Shown: one piece after another, positions 900 to 41,043 of the stretch
Layout of the letters: every line of letters begins with the position of its first letter
How positions within the stretch are numbered: the stretch's first letter is position 1
Assembly: GCF_021261325.1 (NCBI RefSeq)
Contig: NZ_JAJSBI010000011.1
Span: forward strand, 1 to 64,000
DNA length: 64,000 bases
Reading direction: 5' to 3'
From: Streptomyces guryensis
GTDB taxonomy: Bacteria; Actinomycetota; Actinomycetes; Streptomycetales; Streptomycetaceae
Made by a program: the position numbers and the translations under genes
The notes under the pieces: model-generated
Told to the model about the DNA's origin: nothing
The model's database searches: none
Seen by the model: only the letters and a program-made list of their open reading frames with translations

Positions 900-3380
900 C
901 TACGGCAGCGTCCACCGCTGGTTGGCGCCACCGTCGCAGGCCCAGATGTCCAGCTGGGTGAGGTTGGCGGTGCTGCTGTTGGGGTCGTCCAGGCAGCGTC
1001 CGGACTGCATGCCGCGCAGGCTGCCGTCAGCCTGCTGCGTCCACTTCTGGTTGTCTCCGCCGTTGCAGGTCCAGATGTCGACGGGGGTGCCGTTGGTCAC
1101 GCCCTGCTTGACGACATCCAGGCATTTTCCGCCGATGGTCAGGGTGCCGTCGGGATTGTATGTCCAGTTCTGTGACCCGGGCTTCTGGTTGCAGTCGTAG
1201 AGCTGAACCGCGGTGCCGTTGGTGGTGTTGCCTGTGTTGAGGTCGAGGCACTTGCCGGAGATACCGGAGCGGACGGCGCCGGAACGGGTGGGGATCGGGT
1301 TGCTCCCCGGGGTGACGGAGAAGTTGTCGAACTGCTGTGTCTGGTATCCGCCCCCGTTCACGCTACTGGTGGAGTCCGCGGTGCCCAGTCCGGCACGGCC
1401 GTGGGTGTAGCTGTTGTCCGTGACGCTGCCCAGAGCCGTGCCGTCGAGCGTGGCGCTGATGGTCGCCCCTTGCATCGTCAGTGAAACGGTGTGCCACCGG
1501 TTGGTGCCCAGTGCCGTCGTAGAGCCGCTGGCGAGGGTGGTGTACGCCCATGTGCTGTTGACGACATCAGACTTGAGAATCGACCACGTGCCGGTGCTGC
1601 TCACCCGCAGGTGGTACGCCTGCAGGCCGTTGTCGTTCCGACCTTGCATGCCGATACGGCCCAGCAACTCCACCGCTCCGGACTGCGCGAGCATCGTGTC
1701 CGCCGTGACGGTGTAGTTGCCCCATGACTCGTCGCCCATGACGGTGTACGGCGCGTAGTAGTTCTCGTTGGTCCAGCGGACAGGAGTGGTTTGCGCCGTT
1801 TGCTGGAGGCAGGTTCCGGTGCGCCCTGCGCCGCAGGCCGCGGTCTGGAAGGCGCCGTTCATGTCGGTGAAGTACTTCGGGGACGTGGTGGTCGCCGGGG
1901 TCTCGAAGTTGTTGGAGTACGGCAGGCTCAGCGGGGCCGCCGGGGGCGAGGTGGCGGTTCCCTTGCTCTGCCCGGTCGTCGTGGTGACCGTGTACACGTA
2001 GCCGGGTTGCAGTGTCAGCGTGTAACTGCCGCCGGAGGGGGTGACGTCGGTGGTGTGCACGAAGTGTTCGCTGTCGTTGGGCGACTTGAGATTGGTGCCC
2101 CAGACGTGGACCTGGCCGGTGGACAGGCCGCCCGTGACGTGAACGGTCAGGGTCTGCGCGGCCGTGGCGTCCACCGTCTCGATGACGGTGCTGTAGTCAC
2201 TGTGGTTCGGCGACTTCAGTGTCACGTAACTGCCGTTGGACTGAGCGCCGCCCAGGTAACCGCTGGCCGAGTCCTGGTACTGCCAGCCGATCTGCGCGAA
2301 CTGGGACGTGTGTGCGAGGACCCAGGCCGTCTTGGCGATGCTGTAGTGGCCCGACCAGGGCTGGTTGGCGACGGCCAGCCCGTTGAAGGCGAAGTAGGTG
2401 TTGGGATACAGCGCGGCGACGAGCGGCCAGTTGTAATAGGCCGTCATACGGCCGTCGATGTAGTCCCGGTTGACGGCCCTTGCGACCGCCACCGCGCCGG
2501 CCTCGGCATCCTCTGACCCGTTCTCACTCGCCCACAGCGGTTTGCCGAGGTTCTGGGCGTTGCTGGTGCTCGGGCAGTTCTTGAAGTCGGACTTGTTACC
2601 GATGGCCGCGCCGTTGACGTAGCCGCAGGGGTAGTGGACGCCCACGATGTCCACCGCGCTCTTGAACGTCGGATCGCCGGCCATCGCGTCGGCCACCGAC
2701 CAGTTGTCGTCGGCCGCGACCAGCTTGGTGGCACCGTAGCCCTTGGCGACCAGGGCGGACTTGAGGTTCTCGTACCAAGTCGCGTTGTAGCCGCGCTCGT
2801 TCCAGCCACCGAGGTAGTCGATGGTCAGTTTGTGCTGGGCGGCGCAGCCCATCCAGTCCGTCAGGTAGCTGATCGCGTTGGGGGTGAAGAAGGTGTTGCT
2901 GCCGCTGCCGACCCAGCCGGGTGAGCCCCAGGCGAGCCCGTAGAGTCTGATGCTCGGGTTGCGGGCTTTGGCCTGCTCCGCGAGCCACCACTCGTAGCCC
3001 TGGTTGCAGTCGACCACGCCCTGTGTGTGCTCGTGGCTGGCCTCGGCGCCGTCAGTGGTGTTGGTGTCGCCGCCTATTTCGATCTTGAGGGACTGCAGCG
3101 AGGCGCCGTAGCCGGGCTTGAACAGGTAGTCGAGGATCTGGCTGCGCTGCGGCTCTGGATAGTCGATCAGCAGCCGGGTGTTGCCGCCGCCACCGGAGAT
3201 CGCGCCCACACCGTCGAAGGTCCGACCCGTGCCGTTGCCGTCGACGGTGATCGAGGTCGCGGTGGCCGCCTGTGCCGTCGGCGCGGACCAGTTCACCAGG
3301 GCAGCGACGGTGAGGGACAAGGCGGCCAGGAGTGATGTCCGTCTTGAGAGTCTTCGGCGGATCGGGGATCTGAGGTTCAT
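900..3380 (-). CDS. secreted GH59 galactocerebrosidase-like enzyme with ricin B lectin module
   Basis: 826 residues. A signal peptide (twin-Arg-like basic start, hydrophobic 17-31, cleavage near AQA-AT at 38) precedes a GH59 catalytic domain (about 40-390). WNERG (Glu195) fits the acid/base and WASEN (Glu286) the nucleophile of this retaining family. A beta-sandwich, concanavalin-like region follows (about 480-690), then a C-terminal ricin B/CBM13 module with three QxW repeats (SQNW, NQKW, NQRW). Family knowledge suggests hydrolysis of beta-D-galactosyl linkages outside the cell, with the lectin binding galactose-containing glycans. The start is supported by GGAGG 4 nt upstream of ATG. The gene is monocistronic, with its own terminator. 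Confidence 0.88.
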   Translation of the reverse strand: MNLRSPIRRRLSRRTSLLAALSLTVAALVNWSAPTAQAATATSITVDGNGTGRTFDGVGAISGGGGNTRLLIDYPEPQRSQILDYLFKPGYGASLQSLKIEIGGDTNTTDGAEASHEHTQGVVDCNQGYEWWLAEQAKARNPSIRLYGLAWGSPGWVGSGSNTFFTPNAISYLTDWMGCAAQHKLTIDYLGGWNERGYNATWYENLKSALVAKGYGATKLVAADDNWSVADAMAGDPTFKSAVDIVGVHYPCGYVNGAAIGNKSDFKNCPSTSNAQNLGKPLWASENGSEDAEAGAVAVARAVNRDYIDGRMTAYYNWPLVAALYPNTYFAFNGLAVANQPWSGHYSIAKTAWVLAHTSQFAQIGWQYQDSASGYLGGAQSNGSYVTLKSPNHSDYSTVIETVDATAAQTLTVHVTGGLSTGQVHVWGTNLKSPNDSEHFVHTTDVTPSGGSYTLTLQPGYVYTVTTTTGQSKGTATSPPAAPLSLPYSNNFETPATTTSPKYFTDMNGAFQTAACGAGRTGTCLQQTAQTTPVRWTNENYYAPYTVMGDESWGNYTVTADTMLAQSGAVELLGRIGMQGRNDNGLQAYHLRVSSTGTWSILKSDVVNSTWAYTTLASGSTTALGTNRWHTVSLTMQGATISATLDGTALGSVTDNSYTHGRAGLGTADSTSSVNGGGYQTQQFDNFSVTPGSNPIPTRSGAVRSGISGKCLDLNTGNTTNGTAVQLYDCNQKPGSQNWTYNPDGTLTIGGKCLDVVKQGVTNGTPVDIWTCNGGDNQKWTQQADGSLRGMQSGRCLDDPNSSTANLTQLDIWACDGGANQRWTLP

Positions 3381-3886
3381 GTCGCCTCCAAGGGTGCTGG
3401 TTCAGCAATTTGGAACAGGTACGAACGGTCCGAGGCCGCGGAAGGCTTGGCGTGCCTACGGACAGCGGCGGAGACGCCACTGGGTACGAGTGCGGTACAG
3501 AGGACCCCGGGATCTCCAGGGGGGGCCGTCACTCACGCTGAGCCTTCGTCGGCGCGTGGGACTATTTGTTTGCACTCGTTCGGTAACGTTGTTTCGCGTT
3601 GCAGAGTGTGGAGCTGTCGACGATTGCCGTCAAGGGTTTCGGTGGGATTGGGTTCCCGGCCCGCGGCTGTCCCACGCGAGTCACCCGTCCCGCTCACCAG
3701 GTGGCGGCTTGACCGAAGCAAATCAGGACCGGGCGTTGGTGGGGCGCGTTCGCAGTGCCGTCGTGAGCGGCGCGTGCGTGGGATCGGCGGCCGGTCGGCG
3801 CGCTGGTCGCCCGGCCGGAGACGACGGCGCGAGCCGCGGCGCCCGGGAGTACTTCACCATCGCCGACTGAACCCGCGTCCCTCGCG
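3381..3886. other. upstream region of the GH59-like gene
   Basis: No coding signal. It should hold the promoter of the GH59-like gene. An imperfect dyad centred on AACGTT (CGGTAACGTTGTTTCG, around 3580-3600) would suit a LacI-type sugar regulator, but this is only a possibility. Confidence 0.4.
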
Positions 3887-4184
3887 TCAGCTCGATTTGA
3901 GGATGATCGCCTGGCCGCCCGCGGGAGCCATCGCCACGTTCAGCGTGGCGGCCGAGGTGACCGTCCGGGTGCTGACCACGACGGGTCGCCGCGCCGAGAC
4001 TGACCGGGTTGCGGTCGATGGGGCAGAGACTGATCTCGGTGCCTTCCCAGGGTTCGGCGAGTGCGTAACGGGCGGCGGTGCCGCGTACGTGCGGCAGCAC
4101 GGCGCTTCCCAGTCTGTCGGCGACCCCGGCCGCAGGTGTCCCGAAGACCACGACGGGACTGGACGCGAAACAAGAAGACGTCAA
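3887..4184 (-). pseudogene. glycosidase C-terminal remnant
   Basis: Two frames on the minus strand look protein-like and would join by a frameshift near 4000. One contains YALAEPWEGTEISLCPIDR, the other ends VTSAATLNVAMAPAGGQAII plus LKSS and a stop at 3887. A C-terminal beta-strand tail closing with MAPAGGQAIIL is typical of several glycoside hydrolases, but I cannot name the family. It lies between two glycosidase genes in the same orientation, so it may be the end of a third, deleted enzyme. Confidence 0.35.
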
Positions 4185-4361
4185 GGCGCAAGCGGGGACT
4201 GGCCGTCGACGTGCTGGGACTGGTCATCGGCGGCGTCGTCCTGGCAGCCTCCGCGCGGTACTCGGCGGCGCGTTCGGTGAACCTCGGCGATGTCCGGCCC
4301 CCCGTGGTCGGCACTACGAGCGTGCGGGATCGCGTCGTCGGGGCTCTCCGTGACCACTTGC

Positions 4362-37470: not shown

Positions 37471-37854
37471 ATGGCACCCCCGTCCGACGACTTCCACCAC
37501 ACGCCCTCCCCCGCCGGTTCCCCGCGCTCCCGCGATAACGGCCTGCGGCGCAGCCGCCGTCTGAACCGGTGGATCGCCGTCACCGCCGTGGCCGGTGCGG
37601 CAGCCCTGGGCGGCCTCTTCACCCACCTGTTGCCGGGCGGTTCGGCCGCCTCCGCGCCGCCGGGCCCAGCCGTGCAGCACTCCGCCGCTTCCACCGTCGC
37701 GACCACAGGAGGGGGCGACCGGGAACACGGGGAGGCGGGCGACCACGAGGACGACGGCGGCGCGGCGCCGGTCACGCAGCCGACACCGCAGCCCCCGGCG
37801 CAGCCGCCCGCCGCCACCCAGCAGCAGCCGCACACCACGACGGGGGCGTCATGA
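37471..37854 (+). CDS. membrane-anchored acidic/proline-rich protein, first gene of redox operon
   Basis: 127 residues; AGGAG 7 nt before ATG 37471. A basic N-terminus (RRSRRLNRW) is followed by one transmembrane helix (about 34-55, IAVTAVAGAAALGGLFTHLL), then a low-complexity extracytoplasmic tail rich in Asp/Glu/His (GDREHGEAGDHEDDGG) and Pro/Gln. No FMN-binding domain is visible, although ApbE substrates in similar operons carry one (D/S-G-A-T/S). The ATGA overlap with apbE shows it belongs to the operon. I do not recognise a family. Confidence 0.75.
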   Translation: MAPPSDDFHHTPSPAGSPRSRDNGLRRSRRLNRWIAVTAVAGAAALGGLFTHLLPGGSAASAPPGPAVQHSAASTVATTGGGDREHGEAGDHEDDGGAAPVTQPTPQPPAQPPAATQQQPHTTTGAS

Positions 37855-38810
37855 CCACGCGCACCCCGTCACCAGCGCAGACCGTCTTCCCCGCACTGGG
37901 CACCACGGCCGCCCTGCTCGTGACCGTCCCGAGCACGCTGCCCGCGGCGGAAGAGGTCCTGCGCGCCGAACTGGCCGCCGTCGACCTCACGTGCAGCCGC
38001 TTCCGGCCAGACTCCGAACTCACCCGCGTGAACCTGAGCGCAGGCTCCCCTACGACGGTGAGTGAGCGCTTCGCCGAGGCTCTGCAGACCGCCCTGCGTG
38101 CCGCCCGGATCACCGACGGCGCCGTGGACCCGACCGTGGGCAGCGCGGTGATCGCGCTCGGCTACGACTGCACCTTCGCCTCCCTGCGCCCCGACGACGC
38201 CCGCCCCCTGCCCGTGGCACGTCCGGTGCCCGGCTGGCAGCGCATCCTTTTTGACCCACGCACTCGCCGACTGCGCCTGCCCCCGCACGCCCTACTCGAC
38301 CTGGGTGCCACCGCCAAAGCTCTCACCGCCGACCGCGCCGCCCGGCTCGCCGCCGCCGTCACCGGAAGCGGGGTCCTGGTCAGTCTCGGAGGCGACCTGG
38401 CCACGGCCGGGCCGGCGCCCGAGGGCGGCTGGCGGATCGCGCTCGCCGACGACCACGCGCAGCCCGTCACGGAGCAGGTCCCCGCTGTCACCGTGACCAG
38501 TGGCGCACTGGCGACCTCCGGCATCCGGGTGCGCACCTGGCGGCGCGACGGGCGCACCCTGCACCACATCGTCGACCCGGCCACCGGTGAGCCCGCCGCG
38601 CCCGTGTGGCGCACGGTCACCGTCGCGTCCGCCACCTGCGTGGACGCCAACACCGCCAGTACCGCCGCGATCGTGCTGGGCGACCGGGCCGAGGCCTGGC
38701 TGCGCGGCACCGCCCTGCCCGTGCGGCTGGTCGGCCTCGACGGCGAGGTCGTACGCCTCGGGGGCTGGCCGCCCGATTCCCACGTTCCCGCCCGGGGAGG
38801 ATGGCGATGA
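37851..38810 (+). CDS. apbE: FAD:protein FMN transferase (ApbE)
   Basis: 319 residues. FPALGTTAALLVTVPSTLPA, CSRFRPDSELTRVNLSAG, DLGATAKALTADRAARL and GVLVSLGGDLATAGP are the conserved ApbE segments; THHI-type LHHIVDPATGEPA and CVDANTASTAAIVLG follow. ApbE attaches FMN through a phosphoester bond to Ser/Thr of membrane redox proteins. No lipoprotein signal is visible. It overlaps both neighbours by ATGA, so it is made in step with the membrane subunit that follows. Confidence 0.92.
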   Translation: MTTRTPSPAQTVFPALGTTAALLVTVPSTLPAAEEVLRAELAAVDLTCSRFRPDSELTRVNLSAGSPTTVSERFAEALQTALRAARITDGAVDPTVGSAVIALGYDCTFASLRPDDARPLPVARPVPGWQRILFDPRTRRLRLPPHALLDLGATAKALTADRAARLAAAVTGSGVLVSLGGDLATAGPAPEGGWRIALADDHAQPVTEQVPAVTVTSGALATSGIRVRTWRRDGRTLHHIVDPATGEPAAPVWRTVTVASATCVDANTASTAAIVLGDRAEAWLRGTALPVRLVGLDGEVVRLGGWPPDSHVPARGGWR

Positions 38811-39493
38811 CGACCCTGGCTCTGACCGGCAGCCCCCTGTGGTACGCCAGCCGTGCGAGCGGCACCCTCTCCCTGATCCTGCTCACCGCCACCCTGGTGC
38901 TCGGGATCACCTCCGGCGGGCGCTCCGCGCCACGCCGGATCGGCCGGTTCGAGATCGGCCTGCTGCACCGCAACCTGTCCCTGCTCACCCTCGTGTTCCT
39001 CGCCGTGCACGTGGTGACCGCGGTGCTCGATCCGTTCGTGCACCTGGGATGGGCGGTGTCCCTGGTGCCGTTCGGGGCGTCCTACCGTCCGCTCTGGCTC
39101 GGGCTGGGCACGGCTGCCCTCGATCTGCTGCTGGCGGTGCTGGTCACCAGCGCACTGCGGCTGCGGCTGGGGGTGCGGCGCTGGAAGGCGGTGCACTGGC
39201 TGACGTACGCGGCGTGGCCGCTCGCCCTCTTCCACGGCGTCGGGACCGGCACCGACACCCGGCTCCCGCTCCAGCTGTGGCTCTACGCCGCCTGCCTGGC
39301 CTCGGTGGTCGGTGCCGTGTGGTGGCGCCTGGCGAAGGCGGGCCCTGGACGGGCCGCGGGGCGTCTGGTGGCCGCCGTGGCCGCGACCGCCGTACCGGTG
39401 GTGCTGGCGGCGTTCCTCGCCACGGGGCCGCTGCAGCCCGGCTGGGCCCAGCGCGCCGCCGCGACGACGGTCCTGCTCGGGGGTGGACGGTGA
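38807..39493 (+). CDS. ferric reductase-like transmembrane subunit
   Basis: 228 residues, six or seven transmembrane helices. LWYASRASGTLSLILLTATL, EIGLLHRNLSLLTLVFLAVH and VHWLTYAAWPLALFHGVGTG resemble the ferric-reductase-like/MsrQ haem-binding fold, with His in helices (LHRN, AVHV, VHWLTY, LFHG) as candidate haem ligands. Start ATG 38807 overlaps the apbE stop and has GGGGAGG 6 nt upstream. It probably carries electrons across or to the membrane using haem. Confidence 0.87.
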   Translation: MTTLALTGSPLWYASRASGTLSLILLTATLVLGITSGGRSAPRRIGRFEIGLLHRNLSLLTLVFLAVHVVTAVLDPFVHLGWAVSLVPFGASYRPLWLGLGTAALDLLLAVLVTSALRLRLGVRRWKAVHWLTYAAWPLALFHGVGTGTDTRLPLQLWLYAACLASVVGAVWWRLAKAGPGRAAGRLVAAVAATAVPVVLAAFLATGPLQPGWAQRAAATTVLLGGGR

Positions 39494-40834
39494 ACTCCTC
39501 GACCGCCGCTCCCTTCGCGCCCCACCACCTCACACCCCAGCCGGACTCCCCCACCGGCGCCCGACTGCTGGCGGGCTGGTACGCCACCGGCCGGCCGGCC
39601 ACCCTCACCGATCACCTCCGGCGCTACGGGCCGGCCCCGGTCGCCATGGCCCTCGGCAGCCCTGAGTCCATGCCGCTGGTGGAGGCCGTCGAGGCTGCGG
39701 GGCTCACCGGACGCGGCGGCGCCGGGTTCCCCACCGCCCGGAAACTGCGTGCCGTCGCGGAGCGCCGTGGCCGCGCCGTGGTCGTCGTCAACGCCATGGA
39801 GAGCGAACCCGCCAGCCGCAAGGACCAGTTCCTGCTCGCCGTCGCACCCCACCTCGTCCTGGACGGTGCCGTCCTGGCCGCGACCGCCGTCGGCGCCGAA
39901 ACCGTCCACGTGTGCCTGCCCCGCACCCGCTCCATCCAGTATTCCCAGCTCACCGCCGCCGTGGAGGAGCGCCGCCGCGCCCGCCTCGACCGGGTTCGGC
40001 TGCGCCTGCACGCCCTGCCGCACGCCTACGTCTCCAGCGAGTCGACCTCCCTGGTGCGCTGGCTCAACGGCGGCCCGGCCCGCCCTCAGGGCAGCCCGCC
40101 ACGCACCCACGAACGCGGCATCGGCCGCCGCCCCACTCTGGTCCACAACGCCGAGACCCTCGCCCACCTCGCCCTCATCGCCCGCCACGGACCCGACTGG
40201 TTCCGGCAGGCGGGGACCCCGGACGAGCCCGGCACCACGCTCGTCACCGCCTCCGGCAGCGTCGCCGCCCCGGGTGTCCTGGAGGTCGCGCTCGGCATGC
40301 CCCTCGCCATGCTCCTCGACCTCGCCGGAGGCCGCACCGAAGCCCTGCAGGCAGTCCTGCTCGGTGGTTTCGCCGGCACCTGGCTCCCCATGAAGCAGGT
40401 GCACACGGCTTTCACCCGGCGCGACCTCGCTCCGCTGGGCGCCACACCCGGCGCGGGCGTACTCGTCGCACTCCCCCACTCAGGCTGCGGGCTGACCGAG
40501 ACGGCCCGGATCCTCGCCTACCTCGCCGCCCACAGCGCCCGCCAGTGCGGCCCCTGCCACTTCGGGCTGCCCGCCGTGGCCGAGGACTTCACCGCGCTGG
40601 CCGCCGGACAGGCCGACGCGGGACCTGTTGTCCCGGCTGCACCGGCGGATCGGTCTGCTGCCGGACAGGGGAGCCTGCCGCCACCCCGACGGTGCCGCCC
40701 GCCTCGCCGCCTCCGCCCTGCGCACCTTCGCCGACGACGTCGACCAACACCTCACCCAGGGCGCCTGCCCCGCCGCCAGCCGACCACCCCGGCTGCTCGT
40801 TCCAGCCGCCTCGCCCCCGGAGACATGGCGATGA
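39490..40834 (+). CDS. NuoF-like flavin/iron-sulfur protein, with a one-base frameshift
   Basis: GTG 39490 overlaps the previous stop. LTGRGGAGFPTARK (72-85) is the FMN-loop signature of complex I 51-kDa subunits and NAMESEPASRKD follows; RQCGPCHFG holds two of the cluster cysteines. After GQADA an extra G in GGG at 40620-40622 throws the frame: the continuous frame becomes Arg/Pro-rich nonsense running into the next gene, while the other frame continues correctly as LLSRLHRRIGLLPDRGACRH and ALRTFADDVDQHLTQGACP to a TGA at 40832. About 447 residues if repaired. Either a sequencing slip or a recent mutation. Confidence 0.8.
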
Positions 40835-41043
40835 CCCCCGCCCGGACCCTGCGCATCGACCGCATCGCCTGCACGGGCCAGGGCCTGTGCGCCGAACTGC
40901 TCCCAGAACTGATCGACCTCGACGAATGGGGCTACCCCGTCATCAAGGACCGAGCCGTCCCCGACCATCTGCGCACCCACACCCGCCGGGCGGTCCTCGC
41001 CTGCCCCCGCCTTGCCCTCCACGCCGACGACGGCCCAGCGTGA
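40831..41043 (+). CDS. small ferredoxin, three-cysteine type
   Basis: 70 residues. Cys14, Cys20 and Cys58 (ACTGQGLC ... ACP) give the C-x5-C-xn-CP pattern of a single [3Fe-4S]-type actinobacterial ferredoxin; a fourth ligand is absent. ATG 40831 overlaps the NuoF-like stop in the repaired frame and repeats the GGAG-n-ATGGCGATGAC arrangement seen before the membrane subunit. It is the last gene of the redox operon, a likely carrier between the NuoF-like protein and another partner. Confidence 0.87.
   Translation: MTPARTLRIDRIACTGQGLCAELLPELIDLDEWGYPVIKDRAVPDHLRTHTRRAVLACPRLALHADDGPA

Follow-up and report, generated by a model that had tools for sequence, protein, structure and literature searches.

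The window analysed here is a stretch of 64,000 nucleotides from Streptomyces guryensis (assembly GCF_021261325.1, 10.49 Mb in 78 contigs; contig NZ_JAJSBI010000011.1, our C3, positions 1 to 64,000), in which five open reading frames in the same direction encode an anchor protein, an ApbE-family transferase, a ferric-reductase-like membrane protein (FRD), a NuoF-like protein and a small ferredoxin. An earlier sequence-only reading of the window had named these five genes, and the open reading frames and Pfam matches agree with it. In this study, we find that the first protein is very probably the overlooked target of the ApbE transferase, through its C-terminus, where the last Ser is the proposed site of flavin mononucleotide (FMN) attachment. 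The features are as follows.

37471..37854, forward strand: anchor protein, 127 amino acids; its translation has an Arg-rich N-terminus, a single predicted membrane helix at about residues 34-54 and a low-complexity tail of 73 amino acids
37831..37851, forward strand: H-T-T-T-G-A-S codons, the proposed C-terminal ApbE acceptor tail; last Ser the proposed FMN site
37851..38810, forward strand: ApbE-family FAD:protein FMN transferase (FAD, flavin adenine dinucleotide), 319 amino acids; PF02424 at 1e-54; no hydrophobic stretch noticed at the N-terminus
38807..39493, forward strand: ferric-reductase/MsrQ-like membrane protein (FRD), probably di-heme, 228 amino acids; PF01794 (Ferric_reduct) at 6e-9
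39490..40617, forward strand: NuoF-like NAD(P)H-dehydrogenase subunit (NAD(P)H, reduced nicotinamide adenine dinucleotide or its phosphate), portion in the original frame, 376 amino acids, GTG start; PF01512 plus SLBB
40618..40834, forward strand: 3' end of the NuoF-like gene, out of the original frame, with the second half of PF10589
40831..41043, forward strand: small ferredoxin, 70 amino acids; Fer4_15 at 5.1e-13; conserved C14, C20 and C58
37175..37258, forward strand: remnant of a sensor histidine kinase C-terminus; tblastn matches of 26-35 residues with the kinases of clusters C77, C56 (both from the same genome) and L059

Relatives of the cluster were gathered with an FRD alignment (A1), from which the best 80 of 160 matching stretches in named genomes were taken as loci. 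The five genes, which the sequence-only reading had treated as one unit, are co-conserved elsewhere: ApbE lies directly before FRD in 70 of the 80 loci, and in 69 of these 70 the NuoF and ferredoxin genes are present as well. It follows the ferredoxin gene in four loci (L103, L106, L111, L124), lies elsewhere in two and was not seen in four, and a NuoF-like match is present in 79 of the 80, with L091 as the exception. The loci belong to Streptomyces, Kitasatospora, Streptacidiphilus, Catenulispora, Actinospica and Micromonospora, and further to Acidithrix ferrooxidans, Solirubrobacterales and bins of Chloroflexi and Dormibacterota. The order anchor-ApbE-FRD-NuoF-ferredoxin is kept in many actinobacteria, and variants occur in the Chloroflexi and Dormibacterota bins.

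A Pfam search with the first protein gave no family match and no FMN_bind domain, as the sequence-only reading had stated, and its view that an ApbE protein implies a flavinylated partner is in our judgement right. It had also claimed that no other candidate for such a partner is present. This does not hold, since the first protein itself ends in the ApbE-target-like sequence TTTGAS, and the scan for an ApbE target that had been proposed located a C-terminal [ST]G[AG]S tail. The target rule for ApbE is D-x-x-[ST]-G-A-[ST] with FMN attached to the last residue; a stretch of seven residues suffices, replacement of the Asp by Ala has a minor effect only, and engineered tags do best when placed at either terminus (PMC12052999). 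The window anchor terminates exactly in HTTTGAS followed by the stop codon; the [ST]-G-A-[ST] core is thus present as T-G-A-S, with the leading Asp replaced by His.

Anchors of other clusters were chosen by position, hydrophobic helix and low-complexity tail, the end motif not being used; of the 82 cluster starts in the 80 loci, 74 yielded one. The starts without one are L057, the first cluster of L101, L115 and L134, all at contig ends, and L110, L121, L124 and L129, away from contig ends; the anchors of L124 and L129 were located later elsewhere, with the tail, and are not counted in the 74. The sequence [ST]-G-[AG]-S followed directly by a stop codon ends 71 of the 74 anchors. Counted by position from -4 to -1, 73 anchors have S or T, 72 have G, 72 have A or G (40 A, 32 G) and 73 have S, and Asp stands at -7 in 13 anchors, all of which read exactly D-x-x-S-G-A-S. 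The tails vary from 32 to 133 residues (median 73) and are rich in Pro, Ser, Thr and Ala. Chance in Ser/Gly-rich tails was considered as a source of this pattern and is ruled out for its strict form, which the 4-mers inside these tails predict 0.13 times and their composition 0.20 times. The same end was found in none of the other cluster genes (ApbE 0/73, FRD 0/82, NuoF 0/80, ferredoxin 0/77; 0/312 in total) and in none of 166 background open reading frames. An internal motif D..[ST]G[AG][ST] was likewise absent from FRD (0/82), NuoF (0/82) and ferredoxin (0/78) and occurred in 2 of 75 ApbE proteins, which leaves the anchor tail as the sole recurrent candidate for flavinylation in the cluster.

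The anchor gene overlaps the next one, and the Shine-Dalgarno sequence of that gene might by itself have given rise to the tail. GGN-G[CG]N codons do stand just ahead of the next start in many loci, and 57 of the 74 anchors have a stop of the A/GTGA type. However, [ST]G[AG]S is absent from all 223 ends of the other cluster genes that have this stop type, the Gly codons vary synonymously (GGG 33, GGC 19, GGT 14, GGA 6), and the 17 anchors without such a stop keep the tail, L106 excepted. The tail is also kept in seven of eight cases where the next gene is FRD instead of ApbE, in L129 (TSGGS), with the anchor gene placed after that of the ferredoxin, and in L124 (VTGGS), with the anchor gene divergent on the other strand. 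These last two loci, together with the controls with the same overlap, indicate that the end is selected as protein and not as a ribosome-binding site, and we regard the Shine-Dalgarno explanation as hardly credible. The side of the membrane is suggested by the charge around the helix, whose N-terminal side is more positive than its C-terminal side in 70 of 74 anchors, so that the tail is predicted to lie outside.

Some other possible identities of the anchor were set aside. A remnant of FMN_bind is ruled out, as Pfam finds none in the window anchor or in eight homologues, and the NCBIfam matches CU044_5270, MAP_0585 and PepSY_MTB were disregarded because they lie far under their cut-offs. The anchor of L108 has one Pfam match, TgpA_N, below the cut-off. 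When the anchor sequences were read by eye, no conserved RR motif of a twin-arginine signal was seen.

Several observations weigh against the anchor tail as the ApbE acceptor, and we set them out here together with those that answer them. Three of the 74 anchors end otherwise, L091 in SGQS, L106 in SGGSGS and L125 in SPSPKR, all three beside an ApbE of the Asn type described below. L048 (TSKHG, drawn from another locus set) and L140 (SPWRDD), both outside the 74, lack the tail, and no anchor was found in L110, L121, L144, L155, L156 and L158. The Asp of the target motif is missing from all but the 13 anchors mentioned, and in 32 of 74 tails G and not A precedes the last Ser. Moreover, Thr is favoured over Ser as acceptor (PMC12052999), whereas the tails end in Ser. 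In a sample across the class, 14 of the 18 Asn-type clusters yielded an anchor, and only 5 of these 14 anchors have the strict end, while 13 fit [ST]x[AG]S; this looser pattern, expected 1.43 times in the 74 tails, is on its own much weaker evidence and likelier to arise by chance. Clusters with a Glu-type ApbE give no uniform picture: two anchors end in TTTAGS, one in TKTGAS and one in TTTGASGVIK, and others are without the motif. In the one that reads TTTGASGVIK, from L142, the motif is not at the terminus.

The ApbE proteins themselves carry a subfamily signature. Ser223 and His239 are retained in 75 of 75 aligned sequences, the window's included, and the aligned Mg2+-binding, catalytic Asp is replaced by Asn267 in the same 75 (the row of the L103 protein ends before this position and is outside the 75). 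This Asp is Asp285 in the Vibrio cholerae enzyme (PMC12052999) and Asp301 in Listeria FmnB, in which activity was lost or fell strongly when residues that coordinate Mg2+ were changed to Ala (PMC8906456). Thus, the replacement too counts against flavinylation of the tail, and an Asn-type ApbE might be inactive or doing something else. It could be a former transferase, now a pseudo-enzyme, a FAD hydrolase or a FAD carrier, with the tail serving as a binding peptide only. We think this unlikely, because the Ser and His residues are kept throughout and the tail stops at the very residue that would receive FMN; Asn can, besides, still ligate Mg2+. It is conceivable, if rather doubtful, that the branch without the Mg2+ Asp is specialised on terminal-Ser acceptors, with the C-terminal carboxylate of the acceptor supplying the missing metal ligand in a substrate-assisted manner.

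The distribution of the signature was followed in the class-wide sample, for which 40 of the listed ApbE loci were taken (28 one-piece, 11 short and 1 truncated; the short or one-piece label per genome is our own reading of the ApbE match table). The 28 one-piece proteins have Asn in 18, Glu in 8 and Asp in 2, and the short ones, the kind that goes with FMN_bind, have Asp in 11 of 11. The Glu-type proteins form a sister group (L136-L139, L142, L143, L146, L157), six of the eight with a Lys four residues on.

FMN_bind proteins are scarce in the clusters. The domain (PF04205) is absent from the window cluster by Pfam, and tblastn with two FMN_bind queries found it near the cluster in 2 of 80 loci, inside the cluster in L091 and about 4.5 kb off in L124. 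In L091 (4063-6707), the FMN_bind protein occupies the usual NuoF position and its PF04205 match is barely over the cut-off; together with the SGQS end of the anchor, this makes L091 a possible intermediate between the two acceptor kinds. It has to be considered, however, that the cluster ApbE might serve FMN_bind proteins encoded elsewhere, the tail having another use, for instance in docking with the membrane cytochrome. Such proteins occur elsewhere in 24 of 30 cluster genomes searched (30 of the 80 loci), the window's own genome also has FMN_bind matches, on C12 and C21 only, and this is a further point on the opposing side. Yet FMN_bind accompanies its own short, Asp-type ApbE: tblastn found it in 9 of 11 stretches around a short ApbE and in 0 of 28 around a one-piece ApbE (about 3 kb on each side where the contig allows), and among 28 genomes a short ApbE is present in 15 of 15 with FMN_bind and in 2 of 13 without (Fisher p 3.6e-6).

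In eight genomes (G066, G076, G083, G092, G127, G119, G054, G108) there is exactly one ApbE match, of the Asn type, and no FMN_bind match. Five of these have the strict tail (G066, G076, G083, G092, G127), two a looser one (TQGS in G119, THGS in G108), and in G054 the tail was not found; G076 and G083 are metagenome bins that may be incomplete, and G092, G127, G119, G054 and G108 are listed as 96-100% complete. From these genomes, and from the way FMN_bind tracks the short ApbE, we infer that the cluster ApbE probably has a substrate other than FMN_bind. The tail, in turn, resembles the ApbE motif and ends at the acceptor residue. Service to distant FMN_bind proteins therefore seems improbable to us, and modification of the anchor tail is the reading followed below.

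The last of the opposing points is one of location, as the ApbE protein looks cytosolic and the tail extracytosolic. An N-terminal hydrophobic stretch over the threshold is absent from 64 of 66 ApbE proteins in a simple hydropathy scan, which is not a signal-peptide predictor (those of L080 and L084 pass slightly). Because the enzyme seems to be without a signal peptide, it would probably modify the tail in the cytosol, prior to export. The short ApbE of the genome's own C21 locus also shows no such stretch by eye, and members of this group may thus often act before their substrate is exported.

With regard to the proteins that would carry electrons, His54, His68, His130 and His143 of FRD are invariant in the 17 sequences of alignment A1, with a spacing that we take to be that of the ferric-reductase superfamily; as pairs, His54/His68 and His130/His143, they could form two bis-His heme sites. 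Its AlphaFold model is mediocre (predicted local distance difference test score, pLDDT, 67.5); the best fold matches in the PDB are STEAP and NOX proteins, which are weak (E 0.04-0.14, none at 0.001), and phmmer against the PDB gave no match. The NuoF-like protein matches Complex1_51K at 1.7e-33 in Pfam in addition to SLBB, its family retains the motifs G-R-G-G...F-P and N..E.EP, and its best PDB match is 2fug chain 1. In the iron-sulfur (Fe-S) motif CxxCxxC, the window protein has Ala for the first Cys (SARQCGPC versus SCGKCTPC in 2fug). Conservation reaches at least 90% at Cys353, at Cys356 and at two Cys encoded in the 3' part. Three Cys of the ferredoxin are conserved (14, 20 and 58). Pfam found no RnfC/NqrF, RnfD/NqrB or RnfG/NqrC family among the five genes, and the NuoF-like protein scores 55 bits against the RnfC profile, for which the cut-off is 246. 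This agrees with the compact membrane electron shuttle suggested by the sequence-only reading, and the cluster looks like a path from NAD(P)H to the membrane that is neither Nqr nor Rnf.

It had been stated that all junctions are 4-nt overlaps. This is confirmed for the first three (ATGA at 37851, ATGA at 38807, GTGA at 39490) but not for the one between NuoF and ferredoxin (ATGA at 40831), as the frame from 39490 meets no stop before 41043, that is, it runs through into the ferredoxin frame. An alignment with L056, L063 (NZ_BSSM01000017, Streptomyces hygroscopicus), L068, L072 and the C56 copy of the same genome reveals an extra single base at about 40618-40626 in the window. It splits the NuoF-like gene, so that the first 376 codons continue into the ferredoxin frame and PF10589 is divided between two frames (profile positions 3-42 in one, 45-85 in another). 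The frame shift may be real or a sequencing error, and the fourth overlap holds only if the extra base is an error. The overlaps suggest translational coupling, and on their own do not establish that the products are made in fixed proportion, as had been concluded from them.

Two more copies are present in the same genome. The one on C77, whose ApbE, FRD, NuoF and ferredoxin are 62-72% identical to those of the window, appears to be complete, with an anchor that ends in TTSGAS and a sensor kinase upstream, of which the kinase domains were identified. The one on C56 (L038:4715-6233) has suffered a deletion in which part of ApbE, the entire FRD and the N-terminal part of NuoF were lost, residues 1-117 of ApbE being followed by residue 244 onward of NuoF; its anchor retains the end TTTGAS. 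In the window, the kinase gene just upstream, which is like the kinases upstream of the other copies, is represented by the short matches listed above. Judged by the NuoF frame shift and this kinase remnant, the window copy is probably impaired.

The neighbouring genes are mixed and do not name an electron acceptor, for which purpose they had been considered. Upstream, HATPase/HisKA domains were found in 11 and a response-regulator domain in 5 of 30 neighbours scanned (60 listed); downstream, 56 scanned neighbours (105 listed) included P-type ATPases (9), hemerythrin domains (8) and APH_6_hur kinases (9). In a group of Streptomyces loci, the downstream neighbour is a P-type ATPase with a hemerythrin domain, which may point to metal transport; the P-type ATPase protein of L056 (7310-9688) carries a TPC motif. 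In L048, the locus with the TSKHG anchor end, a nitric oxide synthase oxygenase gene (3100-4248; PF02898, 5e-136) lies just upstream of the cluster. A related cluster at two loci, L037 (5887-9011) and L053 (4624-7727), has a NuoF-ferredoxin fusion (by Pfam for L037) and a relative of FRD. No ApbE match was found at either locus, and the 504-amino-acid partner reading frame of L037 has no Pfam match. The neighbour of this related cluster is presumably a leucyl-tRNA synthetase.

We consider it likely, with a probability of roughly three in four, that the five genes encode a membrane electron-export module whose outer flavin carrier is tethered at the C-terminus of a disordered tail. Electrons would pass from NAD(P)H to the NuoF-like dehydrogenase, with its FMN and Fe-S, and on to the small ferredoxin; from there, they would cross the two b hemes of FRD to an FMN that the cluster's own ApbE would have linked by a phosphoester to the last Ser of the anchor. 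The anchor would be fixed by its one N-terminal membrane helix, and the tail would let the flavin swing between the heme and an acceptor outside the cell membrane, for which Fe(III) is our first guess. Gene order, conservation of the tail as protein, the ApbE signature and the scarcity of FMN_bind in the clusters are observed, and flavinylation, topology, direction of electron flow and acceptor are inferred. Hints on the function come from the sensor kinase or response regulator upstream, the P-type ATPase with a hemerythrin domain downstream, and the presence of the cluster in Acidithrix ferrooxidans; iron reduction as the function is likewise a guess. A terminal Ser tail acting in this way would show that electron transfer by a covalently bound flavin does not require a folded flavin-binding domain. 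On the more doubtful reading given above, of an ApbE branch specialised on terminal-Ser acceptors, the product would be a "flavin on a string", a carrier without a flavin-binding domain, and this would explain some of the orphan apbE genes found among actinobacteria. The exchange of Asp for Asn in this branch of ApbE offers, moreover, a testable hypothesis on how a transferase reads a protein end.

The architecture itself is not outside the literature: Meheust et al. 2021 (PMC8238504) list MsrQ-like clusters, 31 of them with a NuoF-like PF10589 gene. In the same survey, 17% of the genomes carry ApbE but no protein with an FMN-binding domain, and DUF2271 and DUF3570 are named as other ApbE substrates (PMC8238504), to which Flavodoxin_4 and FMN_red proteins were later added (mSystems 2024, PMC11334425; preprint PMC10979944). 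Among article texts in the open PMC library, our searches showed us no paper on either a terminal acceptor tail of these clusters or the Asn-type branch of ApbE. The MsrQ-like systems are the closest relatives, with apbE beside a PF01794 cytochrome broadly in Actinobacteria and a NuoF-like NAD(P)H donor in a subset; typically, they include a gene with an FMN-binding domain (PMC8238504), whereas the present clusters have in its place an anchor whose disordered tail ends like an acceptor. In the window, apbE, the PF01794 gene and the PF10589 donor (in two frames) are all present, and a gene with an FMN-binding domain is not.

Other known systems share single traits with the cluster. In FMN_red proteins, ApbE sites lie on an unstructured C-terminal extension, but near the protein's own flavin-binding site (PMC11334425); the present anchor yielded no match to a flavin-binding domain, and its site would be the C-terminal residue itself. 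Nqr and Rnf combine ApbE-dependent covalent FMN with membrane electron transfer, but no NqrB/RnfD or NqrC/RnfG is among the five genes, and the membrane subunit is probably of the heme type. Complex I NuoF, HydB and HoxF share the Complex1_51K fold, SLBB and the Fe-S region with the NuoF-like protein, which differs in the Ala for the first Cys of CxxCxxC and in two extra conserved 3' Cys. In the engineered Flavin-tag, a terminal motif of seven residues suffices for ApbE (Tong et al. 2021, via PMC12052999), and the anchor tail, if flavinylated, would be its natural counterpart. Taken together, the system is of a known kind, and its substrate looks like a new class, with a branch of the enzyme to match.

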